Source of the DNA: Streptomyces europaeiscabiei
Lineage (GTDB): Bacteria; Actinomycetota; Actinomycetes; Streptomycetales; Streptomycetaceae
DNA length: 64,000 nt
Direction: 5' to 3'
Assembly (NCBI RefSeq): GCF_036346855.1
Contig: NZ_CP107841.1
Location: forward strand, 7,940,001-8,004,000
In this document: positions 35,193 through 56,879 of the stretch, piece by piece
How positions within the stretch are numbered: the first letter of the stretch is position 1
How the letters are laid out: the number at the start of each line of letters is the position of its first letter
Made by a program: the position numbers and the translations under genes
Notes under the pieces: model-generated
Databases searched by the model: none
What the model was told of the DNA's origin: nothing
The model's input: only the letters and a program-made list of their open reading frames with translations

Positions 35193-35367
35193 AGAGGTGA
35201 GCCCGCTGCGGTCCTCCGCGTCAGGAGGGCGACAGGAGGTCGACAAGACATCCGGCGAGACGATCAAGAAGGCGTCAGGGAACGGTTTGGGGCGTTCGCG
35301 CCGCCGTAGCGTCGTGAACGGTCCGGCTGCTCCGTGCTCCGGGCCGTATGTCTGTCCGAAGGAAACA

Positions 35368-38855: not shown

Positions 38856-38872
38856 GTCAAGCTTCCGTTAAG
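38856..38872. promoter_or_regulatory. 11-bp-spaced GTCAAG direct repeat upstream of the APC permease
   Basis: GTCAAG (38856-38861) and GTTAAG (38867-38872) are 11 bp apart, as in the kdp-type sites of this window, but they read toward the plus strand while the gene is on the minus strand. Apart from the possible small ORF at 38967, the rest of the gap from 38745 to 39145 has no clear gene. Confidence 0.4.
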
Positions 38873-40073: not shown

Positions 40074-40394
40074 GGTCCATCCAGGAGTGCGCGTACGGAG
40101 TCACGTACGGGTTCGGGTCCCCGTACGACTGGCGTACGGGCATGAGAAAGGGCGCCGGACAGGTGTCGCGGCGCCCCAGGGGCTACGGAAGTCGCGTCAG
40201 CGGACGGCGGACGCGGGCGTTTCCGGACAGCGGGGCACATGACGGGACGCCCGATGGGGCGGCCGGTCGATGAGGAGCCACTCGCTGTTCATGCTGTCGA
40301 TGGAACCCGTGCGAGCCGTCCCGGACAAGCCCAGCTGGCCATCCCTTACGCGCCCCTGACGTGCGTGGACGGTTCCTTGACGGGGTCTTGCTCC
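40074..40394. other. Intergenic DNA without a supported gene
   Basis: About 320 bp upstream of the SDR gene. No open frame with a recognisable product; GTACG-rich repeats occur near 40085-40140. It ends at a kdpB relic. Confidence 0.4.
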
Positions 40395-42209: not shown

Positions 42210-42258
42210 GTCAAGGCGGTGTCAACGTCCTCGTGACCGGCGCCAAGGATGCGTCAAG
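42210..42258 (+). promoter_or_regulatory. Direct-repeat regulator site, 11-21-11 arrangement
   Basis: Four hexamers related to GTCAAG start at 42210, 42221, 42242 and 42253 (GTCAAG, GTCAAC, GCCAAG, GTCAAG). The spacing is exactly that seen upstream of kdpF. It lies in the divergent gap, about 100-145 bp before the kinase start. OmpR/KdpE-type regulators bind such 11-bp direct repeats; KdpE is the inferred ligand. Confidence 0.6.
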
Positions 42259-42354
42259 GAACGCGCCGAGGACCTCGGACAAGCGCTTCGGTAGGGGCAG
42301 TAACCCCTTCCCCCCGGGGAGTTGATCGCCAGTGAGCGGAGCACGTCGGCTGCG

Positions 42355-44928
42355 ATGAGTGACGTACGGACCAATACTAGTGAGGTACGGACCGGCAGAG
42401 GTGAGGTACCGGCGGGTGCGGGTGACGTACGCCCCGGACGCCTCAAGGTCTACCTCGGTGCCGCCCCGGGGGTGGGGAAGACCTATCGCATGCTCGACGA
42501 GGCGCGGCGCAGAGCGGCACGCGGCGCGGATGTCGTGGTGGGGTTCGTCGAGTGCCACGGGCGTCCCGGCACGGAGGGGATGCTCGACGGACTGGAAGTC
42601 GTCGAGCGGGCCTCGTGCGTCTACCGCGGCGGGGAGTTCGAGGAGATGGACCTCGCCGCGGTCCTCGCGCGCCGCCCGCAGGTCGCGATCGTCGACGAGT
42701 TCGCCCACAGCAACGTCCCCGGCGGCGGCCGCAACCCCAAGCGCTGGCAGGACATCGAGGAACTGCTCGCGGCGGGGATCGATGTCATCAGCGCCCTCAA
42801 CATCCAGCATCTCGCATCCCTCAACGACGTCGTCGAGAAGATCACCAGAGTGCCGCAGCACGAGACGGTGCCCGACGAGGCCGTACGACGGGCCCATCAG
42901 GTGGAGCTGGTGGACATCCCGCCCGAAGGACTGCGTCGCAGGATGGCGCACGGCAACATCTACGCCCCCGAGAAGATCGACGCGGCCCTCGCCAACTACT
43001 TCCGCCCCGGGAACCTGACGGCGTTGCGACAGCTCGCCCTGCTCTGGGTCGCCGACCGCGTGGACGAGGCCCTTCAGTCGTACCGCTCCGAGCACGGCAT
43101 CGGCGGGGTGTGGGAGACCCGGGAGCGAGTGGTCGTGGCCCTGACGGGCGGACCGGAGGGCGACACACTGATCCGCCGGGCCGCCCGGATCGCCGACAGG
43201 TCGGCCGGCGGTGATCTCCTCGCCGTCCACGTCACGCGCAGCGACGGCCTCGCCGCCGGCACCTCGCACGCCTCCCTGGCCCGGCAGCGGCGGCTGATCG
43301 AGGACCTCGGCGGCAGCTACCACTCCGTGGTCGGAGACGACGTCGCCGGCGCCTTGGTGGAGTTCGCGCGCGCCGAGAACGCCACCCAGCTCGTCCTCGG
43401 CACCAGCCGCCGTGGCCGTCTCGAACGCTTCGTCACCGGACGCGGCACCGGCGAGACGGTGGTCGAGCTCTCCGGCGACATCGACGTCCACAAGGTCACG
43501 CACGAGCGGGCGGGGCGCGGCACGCTGCTGCCCTCCCGGCGCCGGACCCTGTCGACCGTACGGCGCACAGCGGGCCCGGTCGCCGGACTGCTGCTGCCCG
43601 TTGCACTCACCTTCCTACTGGACCTGAACGTGGCCAGGGACAAGCTCAACCTCACCAGCGAGGCCCTGCTCTACCTGCTCACCGTGGTGGGGGTGGCCTG
43701 CATAGGCGGGGTCATGTCGGCGGTGATCGCGTCGCTGACGGCGTCGGTGCTGCTCAACTACTGGTTCATTCCGCCCGTCGGAGAGTTCACGCTCGACGAT
43801 CCGAACGCGTTCGTCGCCCTGTCCGTCTTCGCGGTGGTGGCCGCCGTGGTCGCCGCCGTCGTGGACCGCTCGCTACGCCTGTCCCGGCGCTCCGCCCGCG
43901 CCACCGCCGAGGCGGAGACGATGTCCTCGCTCGCGGGCACCATCGTGCGGGGCGGCGCGACCATACCCGCACTGGTGGAACGTACCCGCGAGACCTTCGG
44001 CATGGCCTCGGCGGAACTGGCGGAGCTGATGGACGAGCCGCCCGGAGAGGACGGCATGACGGCCGTACCCGCCGGCCCCGGTGCCTTCCTGGTCCTGAGA
44101 GGCCGCACCCTCCCCTCCTCCGAGCGGCGGGTCCTGGCCGCCTTCGCCGCGCACGTGGGGTCGGCGGTCGAGCGGGCCCGGCTGGCCGAGGCCGCCGCCG
44201 AGGTCGAGCCGGTCAAGGCCGCCGACCGGATGCGTACGGCACTGCTGCGGGCCGTCGGCCACGACCTGCGCACCCCGCTGGCCGCCGGCTGGGCAGCCGT
44301 CACCTCGCTGCGCAGTCGCGACGTGGAGTTCTCGCCCGAGGACCGGAACGAACTCCTCGCCACCGCCGACGAGTCCATGGCCCGGCTGAACCGGCTGATC
44401 GAGAACCTCCTCGACCTCAGCCGCCTCCAGGCCGGCGCCCTCACCCTCGACCTGCGCGCCACCACCCTGGAAGAGGTACTCCCGGCCGCGCTCGCCGACA
44501 CCCCCGAGGTCGAGGTGGCGGGCCTGGAGGAGGTTCCGGTGGTGCTGGCCGACCCGCCGCTGCTGGAGCGGGTGATCGCCAACCTGGTCGGCAACGCCGC
44601 CCGCCACAGTCCGGCGGGGCGCAAGGTACTGCTGACCGCGAGCGCCCACGCCGGCCGGGTGGAGGTCCGGGTCGTCGACCGGGGCCCCGGCCTTCCGCCG
44701 ACCGACCGCGACCGACTCTTCGAGCCGTTCCAGCGCCTGGGCGACACCGACAACACGACGGGGCTCGGCCTGGGCCTGGCACTCTCGCGGGGCCTGGCGG
44801 AGGCCATGGACGGCACCCTCACCCCGGAGGACACTCCCGGCGGCGGTTTGACCATGGTGCTGTCCCTGCCCTTCGCCGAGCGGGCGGAGCATCCCAGTGG
44901 TACGCAGACCATAGGAGGCGGCGTATGA
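42355..44928 (+). CDS. KdpD-like sensor histidine kinase (orphan paralogue)
   Basis: 857 residues. KdpD domain with Walker A GAAPGVGKT at 35-43, a universal-stress-like domain near 265-390, DUF4118 four-helix membrane domain near 430-530, a GAF-like stretch, then HisKA with His636 in AVGHDLRTPLA and HATPase (NLVGNAARHSP, VVDRGPGLPP). Residues 2-29 are degenerate 7-residue repeats (SDVRTNT, SEVRTGR, GEVPAGA, GDVRPGR). An earlier TTG is possible. Its stop overlaps the next gene as ATGA. No response regulator is adjacent; it may signal to the KdpE at 53.5 kb. Expected role: sensing potassium or osmotic stress. Confidence 0.85.
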   Translation: MSDVRTNTSEVRTGRGEVPAGAGDVRPGRLKVYLGAAPGVGKTYRMLDEARRRAARGADVVVGFVECHGRPGTEGMLDGLEVVERASCVYRGGEFEEMDLAAVLARRPQVAIVDEFAHSNVPGGGRNPKRWQDIEELLAAGIDVISALNIQHLASLNDVVEKITRVPQHETVPDEAVRRAHQVELVDIPPEGLRRRMAHGNIYAPEKIDAALANYFRPGNLTALRQLALLWVADRVDEALQSYRSEHGIGGVWETRERVVVALTGGPEGDTLIRRAARIADRSAGGDLLAVHVTRSDGLAAGTSHASLARQRRLIEDLGGSYHSVVGDDVAGALVEFARAENATQLVLGTSRRGRLERFVTGRGTGETVVELSGDIDVHKVTHERAGRGTLLPSRRRTLSTVRRTAGPVAGLLLPVALTFLLDLNVARDKLNLTSEALLYLLTVVGVACIGGVMSAVIASLTASVLLNYWFIPPVGEFTLDDPNAFVALSVFAVVAAVVAAVVDRSLRLSRRSARATAEAETMSSLAGTIVRGGATIPALVERTRETFGMASAELAELMDEPPGEDGMTAVPAGPGAFLVLRGRTLPSSERRVLAAFAAHVGSAVERARLAEAAAEVEPVKAADRMRTALLRAVGHDLRTPLAAGWAAVTSLRSRDVEFSPEDRNELLATADESMARLNRLIENLLDLSRLQAGALTLDLRATTLEEVLPAALADTPEVEVAGLEEVPVVLADPPLLERVIANLVGNAARHSPAGRKVLLTASAHAGRVEVRVVDRGPGLPPTDRDRLFEPFQRLGDTDNTTGLGLGLALSRGLAEAMDGTLTPEDTPGGGLTMVLSLPFAERAEHPSGTQTIGGGV

Positions 44929-45746
44929 GCTCCGGAAGCGGCGTACGAGGGCATGGGCCCTCAGGCGCTGTGGCGAACGCAGGAGGAGACGGTGTGATGA
45001 CCGGTTATCCGCTCCGGGACAGGCTCGCCCTGGCGGCGGGGCTCGTGGGACCGTTCCTGGTGGCACTCGCACTCGTGCCCTTCCGTACCGACCTGTCCCG
45101 CACCAACGCCGCGCTGATTCTCGTCGTGGCCGTCGTCGCAGTCGCCGCTCTCGGGAGCCGCGTGGCCGGCGTGCTCGCCGCGCTGTCGGCGACGGCCTGG
45201 TACGACTTCTTCCTCACCCGCCCGTACCAGACCTTCGACATCAACGCCTCCGGTGACATCGAGACGGCGGTGCTTCTGCTGATCGTCGGCCTGATCGTGT
45301 CCCAGCTCGCGGCCCGTGCCCGCCGCCTGGAAGTGATCACGGTGACGGACGCCGACCACCTCCGGCGCATCCACGAGACCGCCGCACTCGCCCAGTCGGC
45401 CAACTCCGCGGACACAGTGGTCGACCACGTCCGGGGCCAGCTGACCGAACTGCTCGGCCTGCGTGCCTGCCGCTTCGAGTACGGCACCCTCATGGGTCGG
45501 CCACCCCGCCTGGAGCAGGACGGGAACATCGCGGTCGGCCGCCGGCGCTGGGACGTCGACGCCGGCGGCTGGCCGGACGGCGAGATCGAACTGCGCACGT
45601 ACGGCAACGGCCACTACCTCGGCCGTTTCATGCTCACGCCCGGTCAGGGTGCCGTCCCGCCGCTCCGGGCTCGCCTTGTCGCGGTCACCCTCGCCGACCA
45701 GACGGGCGCGGCCCTCGACACGGCGGGGCCGGTACAGGACGGCTGA
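44925..45746 (+). CDS. DUF4118 membrane protein (KdpD-fragment-like partner)
   Basis: 273 residues. Four membrane segments in the DUF4118 pattern (WYDFFLTRPYQTFDI between the second and third) are followed by a short GAF-like sensor part; there is no kinase core. It overlaps the upstream kinase gene by ATGA and so is translationally coupled. Such stand-alone DUF4118 proteins follow kdpD paralogues in Streptomyces. It may modulate the kinase; that is inference. Confidence 0.75.
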   Translation: MSSGSGVRGHGPSGAVANAGGDGVMTGYPLRDRLALAAGLVGPFLVALALVPFRTDLSRTNAALILVVAVVAVAALGSRVAGVLAALSATAWYDFFLTRPYQTFDINASGDIETAVLLLIVGLIVSQLAARARRLEVITVTDADHLRRIHETAALAQSANSADTVVDHVRGQLTELLGLRACRFEYGTLMGRPPRLEQDGNIAVGRRRWDVDAGGWPDGEIELRTYGNGHYLGRFMLTPGQGAVPPLRARLVAVTLADQTGAALDTAGPVQDG

Positions 45747-45802
45747 CACCGGAGGAGGCACACCGGCGGTACCAGCGAAACCGGCGGCACCGGAGCCGCA
45801 TC

Positions 45803-45841
45803 CGGCGGACCGGCCGGGGACGAGCCCCGACCGGTCCGCCG
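45803..45841. terminator. Strong nested hairpin terminator
   Basis: CGGCGGACCGG (45803-45813) pairs with CCGGTCCGCCG (45831-45841), and an inner CGGGG/CCCCG extends the stem. It lies between convergent genes and can end both transcripts. Confidence 0.7.
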
Positions 45842-45863
45842 AGCAGCACTTCGTGCGACGGGC

Positions 45864-46439
45864 TCAGTCCAGCCCGGAGACCTTGAACACCGTCAGAGCC
45901 GTCGCACGGTCGATCTGCTCGGACAACTGGTGCAGCGCTGTCGCCCCGCAGAGCAGCAGCCCGGCGTCGGCCGACTTGTGGGCGTCCTCGTGCAGGTGGC
46001 GCCACAGCTCAGGATTGCTCATCAGAACCTGGGGATCGATCTCGACCCGGCCGCCGAACTCGTCCCGCAGGAGGAGCCGTTGGGAGACGCCGTCCAGGCA
46101 GCGCACCGACACCAACCGGTCGGTGCGGACCCGCCGCTCGCGCAGCAGCGCGCGCGAGGACAGCCAGCCCTGGCCCGCAGTGACCCTGGGCGGGAAGAGG
46201 ATCACGAACAGGAGCGCGGCGAGACCGGCCCACAGCCCGCACCGTACGGTCGTGAGGCTGCCGTCGCCCCAGTCGATCAGCAGGAGAAGAGCGAGAAGTA
46301 CGGTCGAGCACTGGACCGCGCCGCGTAGTTCCCCGGCCCAGCGGCGGTCGTACGTCACTTCCGCGGCGGGCTGTGCGTGTGAGTGGACCGAGTCGTCCCG
46401 CGCGTCATGGCTGCGTCCCATAGGACCGACGGTAGGCAT
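45864..46439 (-). CDS. Membrane-anchored hypothetical protein
   Basis: 191 residues. Two hydrophobic segments near residues 45-60 and 65-85 (GLWAGLAALLFVILF) are followed by a cytosolic PH-like stretch with VSVRCLDGVSQRLLLRDEFG and a helical tail. I do not recognise a functional family. The ATG at 46439 or one 18 bp later is possible. Its upstream flank holds a reverse-oriented GTCAAA/GTCAGA direct repeat (46461-46478), hinting at co-regulation with the potassium genes. Confidence 0.6.
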   Translation of the reverse strand: MPTVGPMGRSHDARDDSVHSHAQPAAEVTYDRRWAGELRGAVQCSTVLLALLLLIDWGDGSLTTVRCGLWAGLAALLFVILFPPRVTAGQGWLSSRALLRERRVRTDRLVSVRCLDGVSQRLLLRDEFGGRVEIDPQVLMSNPELWRHLHEDAHKSADAGLLLCGATALHQLSEQIDRATALTVFKVSGLD

Positions 46440-46460
46440 CCGGGAGGCCGGGATCCCGCC

Positions 46461-46478
46461 CTTTGACGCGACTCTGAC
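46461..46478 (-). promoter_or_regulatory. 11-bp-spaced direct repeat, minus orientation
   Basis: Read on the minus strand, GTCAGA and GTCAAA are 11 bp apart. The site is only about 22 bp before the minus-strand gene, so a role depends on the true start. Confidence 0.35.
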
Positions 46479-46555
46479 GGGTGCCCTGCTCCTCCTTGAC
46501 GCCCGCAGCGATGCGGGCCGAGGGTCGGGACATCACCGCGACGGAAGTCGTGCGG

Positions 46556-46583
46556 GTCACAGGGCCGTCAAGGCAGCGTCAAG
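46556..46583 (+). promoter_or_regulatory. Three tandem 11-bp GTCAAG-type repeats upstream of the KimA-like permease
   Basis: GTCACA (46556), GTCAAG (46567) and GTCAAG (46578) start at exact 11-bp steps, about 130-155 bp before the permease ATG. Same unit as the kdp and orphan-kinase sites. Confidence 0.6.
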
Positions 46584-46710
46584 GTTGGGGGCTTCGGCGC
46601 GAAGAAGGCGCAAGGAGCGGTCGCACACGGCGGGAATCGGACAGAGCCTGGGCACACCCGCGCATCGCCTCCCCGCGTGCGCGGGCCCTTCGTCCAAGGA
46701 GCACGCGTCC

Positions 46711-48549
46711 ATGTCTGTCCTGACCATCGAGCCGGGCGAGGCCCCCGCCGCCGAGGAACCGCCCGATACCGGTGAACGGCACCGGCTGACCGCTGTCACC
46801 GGCCTGGCCGCTCTCTCGCTGGACGCGATGGCGTCGGTGGCGTACGGCCCCGAGGCGATCGTCCTGGTGCTGGCCGCCGCCGGCGCGCACGGGCTCGGGT
46901 TCACGCTGCCGGTGACGCTGGCGATCGCCGGGCTGCTCGCGGTGCTGGTCGCCTCGTACCGGCAGGTCATCGCGGCCTTCCCGGACGGCGGGGGTTCGTA
47001 CGCCGTGGCGAAGACGCACCTCGGGGCGCGCACCAGCCTGGTGGCCGCCGCCTCCCTGGTCCTCGACTACGTACTCAATGTCGCCGTCGCCGTGACTGCG
47101 GGTGTCGCCGCCCTGACCTCGGCGTTTCCCTCCCTGTACGGCGACCGGCTGTTGCTGTGCCTCGTGGTCCTGGTGCTGATCACCGCGGTGAACCTGCGTG
47201 GGATCGTGGAGTCGGCGAAGGCGTTCATCGTGCCGACCGCCGTGTTCGTCGTCTCGATTCTGATCCTGATCGCGGTCGGGCTGTTCCGGTCGGCGCCCGT
47301 CAGTACGGCCACCGCGGCCGGGCATGCCTCCGTCCTCGCGGACAACGCCACCACCGTCGGGGCCCTGCTCCTGCTGAAAGCTTTCGCCTCGGGCTGTTCG
47401 GCGCTCACCGGTGTGGAGGCCCTCGCCAACGCCGTGCCGTCCTTCCGGGTGCCACGGGTCAAGCGGGCGCAGCGTGCGGAGGTGGCGCTGGGGGCCGTGC
47501 TCGGGGTGATGCTGATCGGGCTGTCGGTGCTGATCTCGCGCTTCCACCTCCAGCCGGTCGAGGGCGTCACCGTCCTGGCCCAGCTCGCGGACGCCTCGCT
47601 CGGGCACAACTGGGCTTTCTACGTCATCCAGTTCGCGACGATGATCCTGCTCGCCCTGTCCGCGAACACGTCCTTCGGCGGTCTCCCGGTGCTGCTGAAG
47701 CTCCTCGCCCGGGACAACTACCTGCCGCACGTCTTCGCACTGAAGGCCGACCGCCAGGTCCACCGCCACGGCGTACTGGCGCTGTCCCTGATCTCCGCCG
47801 CGCTGCTGGTCTTCTCCGGCGGTGACACCAACACTCTCGTGCCGCTGTTCGCCATCGGTGTCTTCGTCGGCTTCACGATCGCCCAGGTCGGCATGGTCCG
47901 GCACTGGCGCGAGGAGCGTGGGACGGGCTGGCGGGGCAAGGCGCTGCTGAACGGCTTCGGCGCCGTCCTGACGGGTGTGTCGGCCGTGGTCGTGACGGCG
48001 ACGAAGTTCGAGGAGGGCGCCTGGCTGATCGTGATCGCCCTGCCGCTGCTGGTCGCCGCCTTCACGGCCGTGCACCGCGCCTACGGCCGGATCGGCGAGC
48101 GGCTGGGCCTGGGCCGGATCCCCGAGCCGCCGCACCGCGACCGTTCCGTGGTGATCGTGCCCGTGTCGAACCTGTCCCGGCTGACCTGCGAGGCCATCAA
48201 CGCCGCCGCCTCCCTCGGCGACGAGGTGCGCGCGGTCACCGTCTGCCACTCCGACCCCGAGGACCGTGCCCACGCGGCCGCCCTGGCCCGCGACTGGGCC
48301 CGCTGGGACCCCGGCGTGCCGCTGATCCCGCTCACCTCCGAGCGCCGCTCCCTGGGCCGCCCGATCGCCGCCTACGTGGGCGAGACGGCCGCTGCCGAGC
48401 CCGGTGCCCGAGTGACCGTGCTGATCGCCGAGGTCGAGCCGGACCGGCTGTGGCAGCGGCTGCTGCAGAACCAGCGGGGCGCCGTGGTCGCCCACGCCGT
48501 GCGGAAGGACACGGACGCGGTGATCTGCCGACTGCGATTCCGTATCTGA
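46711..48549 (+). CDS. APC family permease, KimA/YdaO-like potassium importer
   Basis: 612 residues. SLDAMASVAYGPEAIVLVLA and FPDGGGSYAVAKTHLG are hallmarks of the KimA/YdaO branch of the APC superfamily, potassium/proton symporters in Bacillus. About 12 membrane segments are followed by a cytosolic tail of about 170 residues with VVIVPVSNLSRLTCEAI, as in KimA. AAGGAG precedes the ATG. It lies between the KdpD paralogue and the kdp operon, which supports potassium as substrate. No cyclic-di-AMP riboswitch was recognised upstream. Confidence 0.8.
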   Translation: MSVLTIEPGEAPAAEEPPDTGERHRLTAVTGLAALSLDAMASVAYGPEAIVLVLAAAGAHGLGFTLPVTLAIAGLLAVLVASYRQVIAAFPDGGGSYAVAKTHLGARTSLVAAASLVLDYVLNVAVAVTAGVAALTSAFPSLYGDRLLLCLVVLVLITAVNLRGIVESAKAFIVPTAVFVVSILILIAVGLFRSAPVSTATAAGHASVLADNATTVGALLLLKAFASGCSALTGVEALANAVPSFRVPRVKRAQRAEVALGAVLGVMLIGLSVLISRFHLQPVEGVTVLAQLADASLGHNWAFYVIQFATMILLALSANTSFGGLPVLLKLLARDNYLPHVFALKADRQVHRHGVLALSLISAALLVFSGGDTNTLVPLFAIGVFVGFTIAQVGMVRHWREERGTGWRGKALLNGFGAVLTGVSAVVVTATKFEEGAWLIVIALPLLVAAFTAVHRAYGRIGERLGLGRIPEPPHRDRSVVIVPVSNLSRLTCEAINAAASLGDEVRAVTVCHSDPEDRAHAAALARDWARWDPGVPLIPLTSERRSLGRPIAAYVGETAAAEPGARVTVLIAEVEPDRLWQRLLQNQRGAVVAHAVRKDTDAVICRLRFRI

Positions 48550-48651
48550 CCCCATCTGATCCCCGCCCCGATGGCCCGTACATCACGGTCCTGGCCGGCG
48601 GCGCGATCAGGCGCCCGGGGGGATTGGTTCCGGCAGATGGATCAGCCCGCC

Positions 48652-48700
48652 GTAAGAGTTCCGTCAAAGGCGCACGAACCTGCGTATGGGAGGCGTCAAC
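48652..48700 (+). promoter_or_regulatory. Direct-repeat regulator site of the kdp operon, 11-21-11 arrangement
   Basis: Hexamers start at 48652 (GTAAGA), 48663 (GTCAAA), 48684 (GTATGG) and 48695 (GTCAAC); the steps of 11, 21 and 11 bp are identical to those before the orphan kinase. The last repeat ends 74 bp before the first small gene of the operon. Best read as the KdpE binding site. Confidence 0.65.
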
Positions 48701-48774
48701 GACAGCCGAATCCGGCCAGACAGGCGCTTTCCTCTAACAGTCCGCTCGATCCGAACCTCATCTAGGAGTTAGCG

Positions 48775-48858
48775 ATGGCCGACCTGGCCTTCGTCGTCAT
48801 CACGATCGCGGTGTTCGCGCTGGTGGCTCTCGCCGCCAAGGGGGTGACGAAGCTGTGA
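48775..48858 (+). CDS. Small membrane peptide preceding kdpF
   Basis: 27 residues, MADLAFVVITIAVFALVALA then AKGVTKL: a single transmembrane helix with a basic C-terminal tail. GGAG lies upstream of the ATG. Its stop overlaps the GTG of kdpF as GTGA, so it is coupled to the kdp operon. It may act as an extra KdpF-like subunit or only drive translation of kdpF. Confidence 0.65.
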   Translation: MADLAFVVITIAVFALVALAAKGVTKL

Positions 48859-48944
48859 CCGCCGAGAACGTTGTCGGCCTGATCGTGGCCGTCGCCCTCC
48901 TGGGTTATCTCGTCCTCGCCCTGATCTTCCCGGAGAGGTTCTGA
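48855..48944 (+). CDS. kdpF: Potassium-transporting ATPase subunit KdpF
   Basis: 29 residues: one membrane helix, [17 protein letters not shown], ending in FPERF, typical of KdpF, the small stabilising subunit of the KdpFABC pump. The GTG start overlaps the preceding peptide and kdpA follows 7 bp later. Confidence 0.85.
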
Positions 48945-48951
48945 GAACGCG

Positions 48952-50616
48952 ATGGGTCCCGTACTTGCCGGCATGCTCCAGCTGCTCGCTCTGATAGCGG
49001 CACTGGCGCTCGCCTACGTCCCCCTCGGCGACTACATGGCCAAGGTCTACTCCTCCGACAAGCACTGGCGCGTCGAGAAGTGGATCTACAAGGGCATCGG
49101 CGCCAATCCGAACACCGAGATGCGCTGGCCCGCCTACCTGCGCGGTGTCCTCGCCTTCTCGGCCGTTTCGGTCCTCTTCCTCTACCTGCTCCAGCGGCTC
49201 CAGGGTGTCCTGCCGGGCTCGCTGGGCTTCTCCTCGATCGACCCGGACCAGGCGTTCAACACGGCCGTGTCCTTCGTGACGAACACCAACTGGCAGTCCT
49301 ACTACGGCGAGCAGGCCATGGGCCACCTCGTCCAGACCGGTGGACTGGCGGTCCAGAACTTCGTCTCGGCGGCCGTCGGCATCGCCGTCGCGGTGGCCCT
49401 GGTACGAGGGTTCGCCCGTTCGCGTACCGGTGAGCTGGGCAACTTCTGGTCCGACCTGGTGCGCGGTGTCGTACGCATCCTGCTGCCGTTCTCCGTCGTC
49501 GTCGCGGTCGTGCTGGTCGCGTGCGGCGTGATCCAGAACTTCTCCGGCATTCACGAGGTCGGGCAGTTCATGGGCGGGTCCCAGCAGTGGAACGGGGGCG
49601 CGGTCGCCTCGCAGGAGGCCATCAAGGAGATCGGCACCAACGGCGGCGGCTACTTCAACGCCAACTCCGCGCACCCCTTCGAGAACCCGACGCCGTTCAC
49701 CAACCTGTTCGAGATCTTCCTGCTGCTGGTGATCCCGTTCTCGCTGACCCGGACGTTCGGCCGGATGGTCGGCAGCCTGAAGCAGGGCTACGCGATCCTC
49801 GCCACCATGGCGACCATCTGGGTCGGCTTCGTCGCCCTGATGATGTGGACGGAGTTCGCCCACCACGGCCCGGCGTTCGACATCGCCGGCGGTGCGATGG
49901 AGGGCAAGGAGACCCGTATCGGGGTCGGCGCCTCGTCGATCTTCGCGGTGTCGACGACGCTGACCTCGACGGGGGCGGTGGACTCCTTCCACTCCTCGTT
50001 CACTGGGCTCGGCGGCGGGATCACGATCCTGGGCATGCAGTTGGGCGAGATCGCGCCCGGTGGTACCGGCTCCGGCCTCTACGGCATGCTGATCATGGCG
50101 GTCATCGCGGTGTTCATCGCCGGTCTTATGGTCGGCCGTACGCCCGAGTACCTGGGCAAGAAGATCGGCACCCGTGAGATCAAGTTCGCGGCCTGCTACA
50201 TCCTGATCACCCCGGCGCTGGTGCTCGTCTTCACGGCAGCGGCGATGGCGTTGCCGACCCCGGGCAACTCGATGACCAACAGTGGTGCGCACGGCTTCTC
50301 CGAGATCCTGTACGCCTACACCTCCGCGTCGAACAACAACGGTTCGGCCTTCGCCGGGCTGAACGCGGACACCCAGTGGTTCAACACGACCCTGGGTCTC
50401 GCCATGGCCCTGGGCCGGTTCCTGCCGATGGTGTTCGTCCTCGCGCTGGCAGGTTCGCTGGCCGAGCAGCAGCCGGTGCCGGCGACCGCGGGCACCCTGC
50501 GGACCGAGAAGCCCCTGTTCACGGGTCTGCTGGTGGGCGCGATCCTCATCATCACCGGTCTGACCTACTTCCCGGCGCTCGCGCTGGGTCCGCTGGCCGA
50601 GGGGCTGGCGTCATGA
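48952..50616 (+). CDS. kdpA: Potassium-transporting ATPase subunit KdpA
   Basis: 554 residues. The channel-like subunit that binds and conducts K+. The four filter-type loops are visible: [50 protein letters not shown] and [13 protein letters not shown]. Its stop overlaps the kdpB ATG (ATGA). Confidence 0.95.
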
Positions 50617-52748
50617 CCACCCGCACAGAGAAGCAAGAGGACTCGATGTCCACATCCACCCCTACCCGGGCGCCGCACAGCGATGTGCCGACCGGCCACA
50701 AGGACGAAGGACGCGTCGGTGCGGGTCTGTTCGACCCGAAGCTGCTGCTGAAGGCGCTGCCGGACGCGTGCCGCAAGCTGGATCCGCGGGTGATGGTCAA
50801 GTCCCCCGTGATGTTCGTGGTGCTGGTCGGGTCCGTGCTGACGACGGTGTTCTCCTTCAAGGATCCGGGCGACTGGTTCGGCTGGGCCATCAGCGTCTGG
50901 CTCTGGCTGACCGTGATCTTCGCCAACCTGGCGGAGGCGGTCGCAGAGGGGCGCGGCAAGGCCCAGGCGGACACACTCCGCAAGGCCAAGACCGACACGA
51001 TCGCGCGGCGGCTGGCCTCGGACGGCAAATCCGAGGAGCAGGTGCCCGGGACCGAGCTCAGGATCGGCGACCTGGTCGTCTGTGAGGCCGGTGACATCAT
51101 CCCCGGCGACGGTGATGTCGTCGAGGGCGTCGCGTCGGTGGACGAGTCGGCGATCACTGGTGAGTCGGCTCCCGTGATCCGCGAGTCGGGCGGCGACCGG
51201 TCGGCCGTGACCGGCGGTACGAAGGTGCTGTCCGACCGGATCGTCGTCAAGATCACGACGAAGCCCGGCGAGACCTTCATCGACCGCATGATCGCCCTGG
51301 TCGAGGGCGCGGCCCGGCAGAAGACGCCGAACGAGATCGCGCTGAACATCCTGCTGGCCTCGCTGACCATCGTGTTCCTGCTGGCGGTGGCGACCCTGCC
51401 GCCGTTCGCGGACTACGCGGGCACGCATCTGACGATGGTCGTGCTGGTGGCGCTGCTGGTCTGTCTCATCCCGACCACGATCGGCGCGCTCCTGTCGGCG
51501 ATCGGCATCGCGGGCATGGACCGGCTGGTGCAGCGCAATGTGCTCGCCATGTCGGGGCGTGCCGTCGAGGCCGCCGGTGACGTCTCGACCCTGCTGCTGG
51601 ACAAGACGGGCACCATCACGCTGGGCAACCGGCAGGCGTCGGAGTTCGTGCCGGTGAGCGGGACGACGGAGGCCCAGGTCGCGGACGCCGCCCAGCTGTC
51701 CTCGCTGGCCGACGAGACGCCCGAGGGCCGCTCCATCGTCGTCCTGGCGAAGGAGAAGTACGGGCTGCGCGAGCGCCAGCAGGGCGAGTTGGCCGGTGCC
51801 GAGTGGATCGCCTTCACCGCCCAGACCCGCATGTCGGGCGTGGACGTCGACGGGCGTAAGGTCCGCAAGGGCGCGGCCGGATCGGTCGTCGCCTGGGTGC
51901 GGGAGCAGGGCGGCGAGGTGTCCGAGGACGCCGGCGCGCTCACCGACCGGATCTCCGAGGCCGGAGGCACCCCGCTGCTCGTGGCCGTCGAGGACACCGA
52001 CGGGGCACGGGTGTTGGGCGTCATCCACCTCAAGGACGTCGTCAAGGAGGGCATGCGGGAGCGGTTCGACGAACTGCGCCGCATGGGCATCAAGACGGTC
52101 ATGATCACGGGCGACAACCCGCTGACCGCCAAGGCGATCGCCGAGGAGGCGGGCGTCGACGACTTCCTCGCGGAGGCGACTCCCGAGGACAAGATGGCCC
52201 TCATCAAGCGGGAGCAGGCGGGCGGCAAGCTGGTCGCGATGACGGGTGACGGTACGAACGACGCGCCGGCCCTCGCCCAGGCCGACGTGGGTGTGGCCAT
52301 GAACACCGGAACCTCGGCAGCCAAGGAGGCCGGGAACATGGTGGACCTGGACTCCAACCCGACGAAGCTGATCGAGATCGTCGAGATCGGCAAGCAACTC
52401 CTCATCACCCGGGGCGCGTTGACGACGTTCTCCATCGCCAACGACGTCGCGAAGTACTTTGCGATCATCCCGGCGCTGTTCGCTGCCGTCTATCCGGGCC
52501 TGGACAAGCTCAACATCATGGGACTGTCCTCGCCCGACTCCGCGATCCTCTCCGCCGTCATCTTCAACGCGCTGATCATCATCGCGCTGGTGCCGCTCGC
52601 GCTGCGAGGCGTGCAGTACAAGCCGATGAGCGCCGACAAGATGCTCCGCCGCAACCTCACGATCTACGGCATCGGCGGCCTGATCGCCCCCTTCATCGGC
52701 ATCAAGATCATCGACCTGCTCATCTCCCTCATCCCCGGAATCGGCTGA
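50613..52748 (+). CDS. kdpB: Potassium-transporting ATPase ATP-binding subunit KdpB
   Basis: 711 residues; P-type ATPase that powers KdpA. A-domain [11 protein letters not shown], phosphorylation site [11 protein letters not shown] with Asp330, [14 protein letters not shown] and [20 protein letters not shown] are all intact. The hydrophilic N-terminus of about 45 residues is longer than in enteric KdpB. The first ATG is coupled to kdpA; an ATG 33 bp later also fits. Contains the C-terminus that matches the 40.4-kb relic. Confidence 0.95.
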
Positions 52749-52752
52749 TCCC

Positions 52753-53421
52753 ATGAACAACTCGGTTACCAACACCGCCCGGTTGCTCTGGGCCGGCCTG
52801 CGCGCGCTCCTCGTGCTCACCGTGGTGACGGGCGTCATCTACCCCCTGGCCGTCACCGGTGTCGCCCAGGCCCTGTTCAACGACAAGGCGAACGGCTCGG
52901 AGATCAAGTCGGAGGGCAAGGTCGTCGGCTCGTCGCTCATCGGGCAGTCGTACAACCTGCCGTTGAAGAAGGGTGAGGAGACACCGGCTCCCGACCTGAA
53001 GTGGTTCCAGGGACGGCCGCAGAACGGCCTCGGCAGCAACAGCGTCAACACCCAGTACAAGCTGATCCTCTCCGGCGCGACCAACCGCTCCGGCGACAAC
53101 AAGGACCTCATTGACTGGGTGACTGCCGCCAAGGCCGCCGTCATCAAGGACAACTCGGTGGGCGGCTACACGGTCAAGCCCGCCGACGTACCCGCCGACG
53201 CGGTCACGTCCTCCGGCTCCGGCCTCGACCCGGACATCTCCCCGGAGTACGCCGACCTCCAGGTCCACCGGATCGCCGAGCAGAACGGACTGACCGTCGC
53301 CCAGGTGCAGAAACTGGTCGACGACCACACCGACGGCCGCACCCTCGGCTTCATCGGCGAGCCGCGGGTCAACGTCCTCGAACTCAACATCGCGCTCAAG
53401 GAACTCGTGGCGAAGAGCTGA
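52753..53421 (+). CDS. kdpC: Potassium-transporting ATPase subunit KdpC
   Basis: 222 residues; one N-terminal membrane helix (LLVLTVVTGVIYPLAVTGVA) and an extracytoplasmic domain with GSSLIGQSYN, WFQGRPQNGLG, SGSGLDPDISPEYADLQ and a C-terminal LNVLELN-type end. It assists K+ binding by KdpFABC. Starts 4 bp after kdpB. Confidence 0.94.
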   Translation: MNNSVTNTARLLWAGLRALLVLTVVTGVIYPLAVTGVAQALFNDKANGSEIKSEGKVVGSSLIGQSYNLPLKKGEETPAPDLKWFQGRPQNGLGSNSVNTQYKLILSGATNRSGDNKDLIDWVTAAKAAVIKDNSVGGYTVKPADVPADAVTSSGSGLDPDISPEYADLQVHRIAEQNGLTVAQVQKLVDDHTDGRTLGFIGEPRVNVLELNIALKELVAKS

Positions 53422-53545: not shown

Positions 53546-54229
53546 ATGACCCGGGTTCTGGTGGTGGAGGACGACCCTCAGCTCGTCCGGGCTCTGGTGA
53601 TCAACCTGCAGGCCCGCCAGTACGGAGTGGACCCGGCGCCCGACGGCGCCACCGCGCTCCGCCTCGCCGCCGCTCGCCAGCCCGACGTGGTCCTCCTCGA
53701 TCTGGGCCTGCCCGACATGGACGGCGTGGACGTCATCAAGGCTCTGCGCGGCTGGACCCGCGTACCGATCCTGGTCCTGTCCGCCCGCCGGGCCTCCGAC
53801 GAGAAGGTGGCCGCTCTGGACGCGGGCGCCGACGACTACGTCACCAAGCCGTTCAGCATGGACGAACTGCTGGCCCGGCTCCGCGCGGCCGTCCGCCGCA
53901 CCGAGTCGACACCGCTCGCCCCCGAAACCGTCCTGGTGACGACGGACGACTTCACCATCGACCTGCTTGCCAAGAAGGCCACCCGGGACGGACACGACAT
54001 ACGACTCACCCCGACCGAGTGGCACCTGCTGGAGATCCTGGTCACCAACCCCGGTCGGCTGGTCACGCAGAAGCACCTGCTCCAGGAGGTCTGGGGGGTC
54101 ACACAGAGCAACAAGACCAACTATCTACGGGTCTACATGGCCCAACTGCGCCGCAAGCTTGAGTCGGACCCCTCTCACCCCCGCTATCTCATCACCGAGC
54201 CCGGCATGGGATACCGCTTCGAAGGCTGA
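53546..54229 (+). CDS. kdpE: Response regulator KdpE
   Basis: 227 residues, OmpR family. Receiver domain with acidic pocket VVEDDP, phospho-acceptor Asp52 in LLDLGLPDMDG, and YVTKPF with the conserved Lys; C-terminal winged helix with LTPTEWHLLEILVTNPGRLV and GMGYRF. It follows kdpC and precedes kdpD. Winged-helix regulators bind 11-bp direct repeats, matching the sites upstream of kdp and the other potassium genes. Confidence 0.93.
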   Translation: MTRVLVVEDDPQLVRALVINLQARQYGVDPAPDGATALRLAAARQPDVVLLDLGLPDMDGVDVIKALRGWTRVPILVLSARRASDEKVAALDAGADDYVTKPFSMDELLARLRAAVRRTESTPLAPETVLVTTDDFTIDLLAKKATRDGHDIRLTPTEWHLLEILVTNPGRLVTQKHLLQEVWGVTQSNKTNYLRVYMAQLRRKLESDPSHPRYLITEPGMGYRFEG

Positions 54230-54332
54230 AGCGGGCGCGGTCACCACGGACCGGCCCCGCACTTCACCGCCCCCCCGTACCCGTACTGGCACCCGCACCG
54301 GCCCCCGCCCGCAGAGACGAAGAGACGAGAAG

Positions 54333-56879
54333 ATGGCACGCGGCAAGCTTCGGATTTACCTCGGTGCGGCACCGGGCGTCGGCAAGACCTACGCGATGCT
54401 GTCCGAGGCGCACCGTCGCGTCGAGCGGGGCACGGACTGCGTGGTCGCCTTCGTGGAGCACCACCACCGGCCGCGCACCGAGGTGATGCTGCACGGCCTG
54501 GAACAGATCCCGCGCAGGGAACTGGAGTACCGGGGAACCGTCTTCACCGAGATGGACGTGGACGCGGTGCTCGCCCGGAACCCCCGGGTGGCCCTCGTCG
54601 ACGAGCTGCCCCACACCAACATCCCCGGCTCGCGCAACACCAAGCGCTGGCAGGACGTCGAGGAACTCCTCGCGGCCGGCATCGACGTGATCTCGACCGT
54701 CAACATCCAGCACCTGGAGTCGCTGGGCGACGTCGTCGAGTCCATCACCGGCATCCGGCAGCAGGAGACCGTACCGGACGAGGTCGTCCGACGGGCCGAC
54801 CAGATCGAGCTGGTCGACATGTCCCCGGCGGCACTGCGCCGGCGTATGGCACACGGCAACATCTACAAGCCGGACAAGGTCGACGCGGCCCTGTCCAACT
54901 ACTTCCGCCCGGGCAACCTGACCGCACTGCGCGAGCTGGCGCTGCTGTGGGTCGCCGACCGGGTGGACGAGTACCTGAACGAGTACCGCAGCGAGCACCA
55001 GGTGTCGAAGATCTGGGGCTCCCGCGAGCGGATCGTCGTCGGGCTGACCGGTGGGCCCGAGGGCCGCACGCTGATCCGGCGGGCCGCGCGGCTCGCGGAG
55101 AAGGGGGCCGGCGGCGAGGTCATGGCCGTCTACATCGCCCGCAGCGACGGCCTGACCTCCGCGTCACCGAAGGAACTGGCCGTCCAGCGCACCCTCGTGG
55201 AGGACCTGGGCGGCACCTTCCACCACGTCATCGGGGAGAACATATCGACGGCGCTCCTGGACTTCGCGCGCGGTGTGAACGCCACACAGATCGTCCTCGG
55301 GGTGTCGCGCCGCAGGGGCTGGCAGTACGTCTTCGGTCCGGGCGTCGGCGCGACGGTGGCCCGTGAGTCGGGGCCCGACCTCGACGTCCACCTGATCACA
55401 CACGACGAGGCGGGCAAGGGGCGCGGACTGCCCGTGGCCCGCAGTGCGCGGCTCGGCCGGTCCCGGGTCATCTGGGGCTGGCTGGTAGGCGTGGCCGGAC
55501 CGGCCCTCCTGACGCTGCTGCTCACCGGCGTCACGCCTTCGGTCGGCCTGGCCAACGACATGCTGCTGTTCCTGACCCTGACGGTGGCCGCGGCCCTGCT
55601 CGGCGGGCTCTACCCGGCCCTGGCCTCGGCGGTGGTGGGCTCCCTGCTGCTGAACTGGTTCTTCACCCCGCCCATCCACACCCTGACGATCGCCGACCCC
55701 AAGAACATCGTTGCCATCGCCATCTTCGTCGGCGTCGCCGTGTCGGTGGCCTCCGTGGTGGACCTCGCGGCCCGGCGCACGCATCAGGCGGCGCGGCTGC
55801 GCGCCGAGTCGGAGATCCTCTCCGTGCTGGCGGGCAGTGTGCTGCGCGGGGAGAACAGCCTGGAGTCGCTGCTGGAGCGGGTCCGGGAGACCTTCGGGAT
55901 GGAGTCGGTCGCCCTGCTGGAGCGGGCCAGTGACGTCGATCCGTGGACCTGCGCGGGCAGCGTGGGCACGCGAACGGCGGTCGCACGGCCGGAGGACGCG
56001 GACGTCGACATGCCGGTCAGCGACCGGATGGCGCTGGCTCTTTCGGGGCGGGTGCTGCCGGCCGAGGACCAGCGGGTGCTCGCCGCGTTCGCCGCACAGG
56101 CCGCGGTGGTCCTGGATCGCCGGCGGCTCCAGTCCGAGGCCGACCAGTCGCGTGCGCTGGCCGAGGGCAACCGCATCCGTACGGCGCTGCTCGCCGCCGT
56201 CAGCCATGACCTCCGTACACCCCTGGCGGGCATAAAAGCCGCTGTCTCCTCGCTCAGATCCGATGACGTGGACTGGTCCGAGGAGGACCGGGCGGAGCTG
56301 CTCGAAGGCATAGAGGAGGGTGCGGACCGTCTCGACAATCTCGTGGGCAATCTGCTGGACATGTCCCGGCTGCAGACCGGCACGGTCACCACGCTGATCC
56401 GCGAGATCGACCTCGACGAGGTGGTGCCGATGGCACTGGGCGGCGTACCCGAGGACAGCGTCGAACTCGACATCCCCGAGACCCTGCCGATGGTCGCCGT
56501 CGACCCCGGGCTCCTTGAACGCTCGGTCGCCAACCTGGTCGAGAACGCGGTGAAGTACAGCCCTGCCGAGGAGCGGGTCCTGGTGTCGGCGTCTGCGATG
56601 GCCGATCGGGTGGAGATCCGGGTGGTGGACCGTGGCCCGGGTGTCCCGGACGATGCCAAGGACCGCATCTTCGAGCCGTTCCAGCGGTACGGGGATGCGC
56701 CGCGCGGAGCCGGGGTGGGCCTGGGTCTGGCGGTGGCGCGCGGCTTCGCGGAGGCGATGGGCGGCACCCTCGCCGCTGAGGACACCCCCGGCGGCGGCCT
56801 CACCATGGTCCTTTCCCTCCCGGCAGCGTCCGACGTTCACCCGGTCCGCCCCGAGCTTCCGGCTACCGCCACTTCCTGA
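54333..56879 (+). CDS. kdpD: Sensor histidine kinase KdpD
   Basis: 848 residues. KdpD domain with Walker A GAAPGVGKT at 11-19, DELPHTNIPGSRNTKRWQD, universal-stress-like domain near 235-365, DUF4118 membrane domain near 395-495, GAF-like region, HisKA with His625 in AVSHDLRTPLAG and HATPase (NLVENAVKYSP, VVDRGPGVPD). It phosphorylates KdpE at low K+ or high osmolarity. The ATG aligns with the family N-terminus and has GAGACGAGAAG upstream. Highly similar to the orphan kinase at 42.4 kb. Confidence 0.93.
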   Translation: MARGKLRIYLGAAPGVGKTYAMLSEAHRRVERGTDCVVAFVEHHHRPRTEVMLHGLEQIPRRELEYRGTVFTEMDVDAVLARNPRVALVDELPHTNIPGSRNTKRWQDVEELLAAGIDVISTVNIQHLESLGDVVESITGIRQQETVPDEVVRRADQIELVDMSPAALRRRMAHGNIYKPDKVDAALSNYFRPGNLTALRELALLWVADRVDEYLNEYRSEHQVSKIWGSRERIVVGLTGGPEGRTLIRRAARLAEKGAGGEVMAVYIARSDGLTSASPKELAVQRTLVEDLGGTFHHVIGENISTALLDFARGVNATQIVLGVSRRRGWQYVFGPGVGATVARESGPDLDVHLITHDEAGKGRGLPVARSARLGRSRVIWGWLVGVAGPALLTLLLTGVTPSVGLANDMLLFLTLTVAAALLGGLYPALASAVVGSLLLNWFFTPPIHTLTIADPKNIVAIAIFVGVAVSVASVVDLAARRTHQAARLRAESEILSVLAGSVLRGENSLESLLERVRETFGMESVALLERASDVDPWTCAGSVGTRTAVARPEDADVDMPVSDRMALALSGRVLPAEDQRVLAAFAAQAAVVLDRRRLQSEADQSRALAEGNRIRTALLAAVSHDLRTPLAGIKAAVSSLRSDDVDWSEEDRAELLEGIEEGADRLDNLVGNLLDMSRLQTGTVTTLIREIDLDEVVPMALGGVPEDSVELDIPETLPMVAVDPGLLERSVANLVENAVKYSPAEERVLVSASAMADRVEIRVVDRGPGVPDDAKDRIFEPFQRYGDAPRGAGVGLGLAVARGFAEAMGGTLAAEDTPGGGLTMVLSLPAASDVHPVRPELPATATS

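Follow-up and report, generated by a model that had tools for sequence, protein, structure and literature searches.

The Kdp region of Streptomyces europaeiscabiei carries four-part direct repeats, in which hexameric half-sites follow one another at distances of 11, 21 and 11 bp, and which very probably are operators of the response regulator KdpE that switch K+ transporters and their own sensors together. The region lies in the window, i.e. the whole 64,000-nucleotide stretch that was analyzed (assembly GCF_036346855.1, contig NZ_CP107841.1, positions 7,940,001 to 8,004,000, read on the forward strand). Arrays of this type precede the kdp pump operon, the gene of an orphan KdpD-type sensor kinase (kdpD2) and the gene of a KimA-type K+ transporter (kimA). 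The reading draws on the sequences of the arrays, on their conservation, spacing and specificity, and on their match to a mapped KdpE site of Mycobacterium smegmatis. The elements in question are the following:

42210 to 42258, plus strand: site A, before the orphan kdpD2, with half-sites GTCAAG at 42210, GTCAAC at 42221, GCCAAG at 42242 and GTCAAG at 42253.
48652 to 48700, plus strand: site B, the putative kdp operator, with half-sites GTAAGA at 48652, GTCAAA at 48663, GTATGG at 48684 and GTCAAC at 48695.
46567 to 46615, plus strand: site C, the putative kimA operator, with GTCAAG at 46567, GTCAAG at 46578, GCGAAG at 46599 and GCAAGG at 46610, the second pair being degenerate.
46462 to 46478, minus strand: a single dimer box, GTCAGA-N5-GTCAAA, which faces the gene of a small membrane protein.
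48728 to 48738, plus strand: a -10-like element, TTTCCTCTAAC, at a distance of 33 bp from the first base of the last half-site of site B.

On re-reading of the sequence, all eight hexamer coordinates that the initial annotation had given for sites A and B, as well as the 11-21-11 spacing at both, were found to be exact. Its description of the two operators as identical applies to the spacing but not to the letters, as a comparison with four copies of GTCAAG yields 22/24 for site A and 16/24 for site B (site C: 19/24). Likewise, the proposed distance of 75–145 bp to the start codons is correct for ATG 42355 (97–145 bp from site A) and ATG 48775 (75–123 bp from site B), but the latter opens a 27-amino acid peptide. 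From the alternative start TTG 42322, site A is 64–112 bp away. In 200 simulated 64-kb windows (first-order Markov), the best 11-21-11 score against GTCAAG ×4 was at most 18/24; site A thus exceeds all simulations and is not a chance occurrence. A score of at least 16/24 arises 2.3 times per simulated window on average. Hence, site B is not significant alone and owes its significance to conservation. Pairs of at least 10/12 at an 11-bp offset occur ten times in the window, seven of them within 38.5–48.8 kb.

This conservation was assessed upstream of kdpA in Streptomyces. An array with half-sites at 0, 11, 32 and 43 that scores at least 19/24 against the kdp-type hexamers is present in 107 of 108 regions, compared with none of the 108 base-shuffled counterparts (maximum 16) and 0–3 of 108 for each of eight alternative spacings. 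These regions comprise 28 from genus genomes, including that of the window, and 80 named records, two of which are titled 'Actinobacteria bacterium'. Of the 57 listed genus-genome kdpA matches, 30 had their loci scanned; the two of these that are not among the 108 regions fit as well, so that the array is found in 109 of 110 loci with L047 as the exception. The window itself is counted among the 110 loci, some genomes are represented in two of them (e.g. L026/L117 and L025/L118 with the same coordinates), and the loci are not independent, as many come from close relatives; 103 of 107 site sequences are distinct, and kdpA of the nearest named Streptomyces relatives is 86–96% identical to that of the window. 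The shuffles, here and in the class-level and partner-distance tests, preserved base composition only. The initial annotation would have given up its proposal if the spaced motif were not enriched upstream of orthologous kdp operons, and such an enrichment is present.

The pattern of conservation within the array is informative as well. Information amounts to as much as 2.8 bits in the half-site columns for T and AA but to 0.0–0.1 bits in linker columns 25–28, and relatedness alone therefore does not explain the conservation of the array. The resulting kdp consensus reads CGTAWGRG-N3-CGTCAARG, followed 32 bp on by CGTAWGGGA-N2-CGTCAACG. Moreover, 101 of 107 loci have an element T[TC][TA]NCT whose first base follows that of the last half-site by 33 or 34 bp, which suggests that the conserved TTTCCTCTAAC acts as the -10 element. 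For scoring, a 20-bp matrix derived from 103 non-redundant tandem kdp sites took the place of the eight-hexamer matrix that had originally been proposed. It assigns 31.1 and 29.2 bits to the two dimers of site B, which belongs to the training set, 16.4 and 12.2 bits to those of site A, 17.2 bits to the first pair of site C and 25.7 bits to the single box in front of the small membrane protein gene.

A strict pattern, CGTMWRRRNNNCRTCAA, was written from the kdp consensus, and its two matches at site B are thus given by construction. In the 10.95-Mb genome of the strain, it occurs eight times versus zero times for the reversed control, and seven of these matches are located in promoters of the K+ gene set. 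The eight comprise the promoter of a K+/H+ antiporter gene (NF003716 at 716 bits, cut-off 355), that of a stand-alone kdpDE pair, the intergenic region between kimA and the small-protein gene (both strands), the kdp operon (twice), a second kdp copy, and position 5842663, where there is no K+ gene. The site at the stand-alone kdpDE promoter scores 24.6 bits and is the only one of at least 7 bits in 12 kb. Exact repeats at G000:C1 3011763 and 5023978 and a triple near 8105040, with no site of at least 7 bits and no recognized K+ gene adjoining, were dropped. Over 61 genus genomes, the strict pattern yields 232 matches versus 46 for the reversed control; the simple pattern GTCAAN6GTCAA discriminates poorly (324 versus 211). 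Among 150 listed strict matches, 84 are found no more than 600 bp upstream of kdpFA (47), kdpD (19), the antiporter gene (15) or kimA (3), and 82 of these are on the strand of the gene. One strict match (L356, G039:C6:536680) stands directly before a further kdpE-like open reading frame.

Apart from kdpD2, a box is found upstream in 22 of 23 kdpD loci, the exception being inside a kdp operon, and none of these 22 promoters has a partner dimer. For kimA, 20 of the 21 named loci that lie close to kdp have a box of at least 10 bits. The small-protein gene has such a box on its own strand in 24/32 named and 17/29 further loci (29 of 30 scanned, L419 left out). The antiporter box was detected in 28/30 loci, in two of them by exact repeat only (<8 bits), and in 13/20 loci, which together represent 50 of the 64 listed matches. 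Two genomes without detected KdpA, KdpD and KdpE are split in this respect, as the antiporter box is absent from G043 and kept in the draft genome G017. In the upstream regions L252–L281, many loci have a long conserved stretch, GTTAGGTAAGGTAACGAAGTA, behind the antiporter box, for which KdpE alone does not account. The proposal that the operators tie the orphan kinase to the kdp pump is in line with the shared array type at both genes, yet it understated a regulon that is wider than two sites.

Similar sites extend beyond Streptomyces. In 82 kdpA upstream regions from other families of the class, a site of at least 10 bits within 600 bp was found on the strand of the gene in 49, compared with six on the other strand and none after shuffling. 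A kdpA match was present in 99 non-genus genomes, 81 of which supplied these regions; the set excludes fragments, second copies and some rows. With a range of 700 bp, 52 regions qualify. In 26 of these, a partner dimer of at least 3 bits is located exactly 32 bp away; otherwise, it is found at 21 bp (five) or 22 bp (one), and no further spacing between 17 and 59 bp occurs. The tandem arrangement is therefore not peculiar to Streptomyces.

The protein that recognizes these operators is very probably KdpE, sites of which have been mapped in two other bacteria. In M. smegmatis, footprinting and gel shifts with minimal fragments delimited a 22-bp KdpE site, CCGTAAAGAAACCATCAAGGCC, upstream of kdpFABC (PMC5401905). 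This site, upstream of kdpF, likewise holds a single 11-bp pair, GTAAAG-N5-ATCAAG, and scores 22.7 bits with the Streptomyces matrix, which was never trained on it; among the training sites, this value would rank above the 5th and below the 25th percentile. Its discoverers saw no marked resemblance to the KdpE sites reported from elsewhere, and the term 'direct repeat' is absent from the main text of their article (PMC5401905). The two systems differ in that one site was mapped in M. smegmatis, while Streptomyces features two dimers 32 bp apart and additional boxes at kdpD, kimA, the antiporter gene and the small membrane protein gene. The KdpE half-sites of E. coli, TTTATA-N5-TTTACA (PMC3264566), likewise consist of two 6-bp units with a 5-bp spacer and hence form an 11-bp direct repeat. 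This match is restricted to geometry, as the E. coli letters are AT-rich and one recognition site of two half-sites has been described. The receiver and winged-helix domains of the window KdpE align to E. coli KdpE (4kny), and the binding residues R193, R200 and T215 of the latter (PMC3264566) are conserved in both KdpE proteins of the genome, based on an alignment read by eye. Taken together, the interpretation as a KdpE box is supported by the kdp conservation, the M. smegmatis match, the boxes at kdpD and kdpDE and the K+ specificity, although a mycobacterial KdpE site had already been published (PMC5401905). In agreement with the initial annotation, no KdpE consensus for Streptomyces was found in the open-licence PubMed Central (PMC) literature, among the matches listed.

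In Bacillus, kimA is linked to the ydaO riboswitch. Control of kdpFABC and K+ uptake by riboswitches for cyclic di-adenosine monophosphate (c-di-AMP) has been described for this genus (PMC6488665), which resembles the present case in the coordinated expression of K+ uptake and differs from it in that the shared element here is a DNA operator. Between 42000 and 57000, no Rfam family reached its gathering score, including the c-di-AMP riboswitch (ydaO-yuaA) leader.

Two other explanations of the repeats were considered. That they arose by chance in a GC-rich genome and have no regulatory role might be suggested by the 16/24 of site B, a level to be expected about twice per 64 kb, and by the mild enrichment of the simple pattern in the 61 genomes. 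Yet, site A is outside all 200 simulations, site B is conserved almost throughout the genus, and the spacing-specific controls are at or near zero, so that conservation and genome-wide specificity refute this idea, to which we assign practically no weight. Alternatively, the repeats could be bound by another OmpR-class regulator of Streptomyces such as PhoP, AfsQ1, MtrA or an unnamed one, with the K+ genes forming only part of its regulon. Streptomyces PhoP recognizes 11-nucleotide direct repeat units with a GTTCACC core, and AfsQ1 binds GTnAC-n6-GTnAC (PMC6988585). These boxes thus share the 11-bp geometry and are bound by regulators of the same class, and the antiporter box persists in one genome without detected KdpE. 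However, their cores are different and belong to other regulons: the half-sites described here are GTCAA or GTAWGG without a GTTCACC core, and at the fifth position, 205 of the 206 downstream half-sites used for training have A instead of C. In addition, the mapped KdpE site from M. smegmatis fits the matrix, seven of the eight strict genome matches are promoters of the K+ gene set, and the box stands before kdpD and kdpDE themselves. On this comparison with the PhoP and AfsQ1 boxes, a regulator other than KdpE appears improbable.

A third alternative bears on the orphan kinase and not on the operator. KdpD2 is approximately 55% identical to the two other KdpD proteins of the genome and has intact Walker A (GAAPGVGKT) and Walker B (VDE) motifs as well as an intact HDLRTP box and HATPase domain. 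An orthologue (at least 71% identity) is present in only 7 of the 61 genus genomes, and all seven, the window included, have a box on the strand of the gene upstream (best scores 10.9–16.4). The full 11-21-11 array reaches at least 19/24 in 11 of 16 named kdpD2 loci. Among four positions near the histidine of the dimerization and histidine phosphotransfer domain, which are presumed specificity sites, KdpD2 differs from the other two KdpDs at one (H+8, G to A). KdpD2 could mainly be a post-translational brake, which phosphorylates KdpB via its N-terminal Walker domain and is not chiefly a KdpE kinase, while the operator merely provides co-expression with the pump. E. coli KdpD sets a precedent by phosphorylating Ser162 of KdpB through Walker A/B (PMC11018627), both Walker motifs are kept in KdpD2, and KdpB features a TGES motif at residue 183 of the translated frame. 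The histidine kinase half of KdpD2 is intact as well, though, and the two activities are not mutually exclusive. A predominant role as a brake is considered less likely than not. Since KdpD2 retains both sets of motifs, transcription, the pump or both may be its targets.

The genes of the Kdp region are listed below in their order along the window. Site A is located between the first two, the divergent intergenic region with one box per strand separates the small membrane protein gene from kimA, and site B precedes the 27-amino acid open reading frame.

42118 to 40544, minus strand: gene of a CPA1-type Na+/H+ antiporter.
42322 to 44928, plus strand: orphan kdpD2, encoding a full KdpD (KdpD-Usp-DUF4118-HisKA-HATPase); the start may be ATG 42355.
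44925 to 45746, plus strand: gene of a DUF4118-only protein directly after kdpD2, which resembles the membrane module of KdpD and lacks kinase domains; 44997 is a possible start (249 amino acids).
45864 to 46439, minus strand: gene of the small membrane protein, which belongs to no Pfam family; the start is probably 46421 (185 amino acids, as in many relatives).
46711 to 48549, plus strand: gene of the KimA-type K+ transporter (APC superfamily, PF13520).
48775 to 48858, plus strand: open reading frame of a conserved 27-amino acid hydrophobic membrane peptide between site B and kdpF, with a similar frame in 92/108 loci.
48855 to 48944, plus strand: kdpF (29 amino acids) with a GTG start and a KdpF-like frame in 95/108 loci.
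48952 to 53421, plus strand: kdpA, kdpB and kdpC (PF03814, E1-E2 ATPase and PF02669).
53546 to 54229, plus strand: window copy of kdpE, encoding an OmpR/PhoB response regulator (E. coli KdpE 4kny, E 9.4e-63).
54150 to 56879, plus strand: window copy of kdpD, approximate start.

The operon hence has the organization kdpFABC-kdpE-kdpD with a KdpE of its own, and the idea that the window lacks kdpE was rejected. Probably, kdpF proper is the frame from GTG 48855 to 48944 rather than the one that begins at ATG 48775. The genome encodes three full KdpDs and two KdpEs, as a second kdpDE, with its kdpE copy at 7784598, is found as the stand-alone pair near 7.782 Mb; in addition, a second kdpA at 9978106 has a tandem box of its own (21.8 and 22.5 bits). 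Given the operon's own KdpE and the second kdpDE pair, the operators would be common to two KdpE and three KdpD proteins. With 202.8 bits over 204 residues (the query is 23 residues short), the window KdpE is below the cut-off of 325 for the NCBIfam equivalog NF007820, which is still its best-scoring family. Similarly, the three KdpDs score 468.8, 528.4 and 510.9 bits against the equivalog NF007793 (cut-off 1123), while each of them clearly exceeds the cut-off of the Pfam KdpD domain. The sole PDB sequence match of the KimA-type transporter is KimA (6s3k, residues 21–594, E 4.8e-120), and from this full-length homology K+ transport is predicted. The DUF4118-only protein has 120 listed relatives of 234–280 amino acids with DUF4118 alone, in a search that admits only lengths near that of the query. 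The small membrane protein is a predicted member of the regulon. In many of the relatives listed, the start corresponds to 46421, so that the transcript would be nearly leaderless. A total of 407 relatives were found, one of which is named PH domain-containing, and a KdpE-type box often lies about 39 bp before their first ATG.

The window harbors a few more repeats of this type. An 11-21-11 array on the minus strand at 40344–40392 (AGCAAG, GTCAAG, GTCAGG, GTAAGG; 19/24) stands approximately 270 bp in front of the gene of a short-chain dehydrogenase and has mixed matrix scores, with 12.1 for the pair that starts at 40381. A pair GTCAAG-N5-GTTAAG at 38856 (7.7 bits) lies in a stretch without a recognized gene. 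The array at 35231 (19/24) was dropped, as its matrix scores are only 0.2 and -2.7 bits.

A mechanism can be proposed in which KdpD phosphorylates a KdpE dimer at low K+, which would then bind head-to-tail to half-sites 11 bp, or one helical turn, apart, with CGTMAGR or CGTAWGG as the upstream half and CGTCAAR as the downstream half. At kdp, two dimers 32 bp or three turns apart would occupy one face of the DNA, and a weaker form of this arrangement may exist at kdpD2 and kimA. As about 28 bp separate the end of the last half-site from the TTTSCT-like -10, KdpE most likely replaces a good -35 element and would thereby recruit RNA polymerase and activate transcription. The two similar KdpEs and the three KdpDs could converge on the same operators, to which the orphan kinase may contribute by phosphotransfer. 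Autoregulation is predicted, because boxes precede kdpE and kdpD at both loci as well as the orphan kdpD2.

Several observations weigh against such a KdpE regulon. Within the window, sites A and C score below the kdp site, and the second pair of site C has -21.2 bits. Of the 150 listed strict matches, 66 are outside the four gene sets; at least seven of these precede a kdpE-like or small-protein gene as judged by coordinates, and 20 were fetched, with the remaining inspected ones facing no recognized K+ gene. Among 18 further kimA orthologues (at least 74% identity, out of 26 listed), merely seven have a box close upstream on the strand of the gene. The box of the small-protein gene is below 10 bits in 8/32 and 12/29 loci, and that of the antiporter gene is missing or weak in 2/30 and 7/20 loci; in the 1,140-contig draft genome G017, it is kept without detected KdpA, KdpD and KdpE. 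Outside the genus, 33 of the 82 class-level kdpA upstream regions contain no site that reaches 10 bits. KdpE from M. smegmatis did not bind the kdpD promoter (PMC5401905), unlike the prediction for Streptomyces. Furthermore, unpublished data mentioned in PMC10117811 indicate that KdpDE is needed neither for development of S. venezuelae nor for its growth with 0.5 M NaCl or KCl, and added salt mainly lowered kdpFABC transcription in S. coelicolor (PMC13011467); neither result bears on low K+.

The analysis yields a defined consensus together with a rule for the spacing and a short list of targets, and it unifies the KdpE sites of E. coli, mycobacteria and Streptomyces as 11-bp direct repeats. 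While the 11-bp geometry and one mycobacterial site were known before, no description of a double-dimer design that extends over the class, or of an extended set of autoregulated targets, was found in the open-licence PMC literature, among the matches listed. The autoregulation predicted here was not seen in M. smegmatis, and the unnamed membrane proteins are new candidates for a role in K+ homeostasis. Tentatively, the double-dimer operator with its fixed -10 might be an ancient promoter design of the actinomycetes that has spread in Streptomyces over a K+-homeostasis regulon. Two KdpEs and several KdpDs, among them an orphan kinase encoded together with a KdpD membrane module that lacks a kinase, could then balance the pump, the KimA symporter, the K+/H+ antiporter and a previously unnoticed membrane protein via one set of operators.

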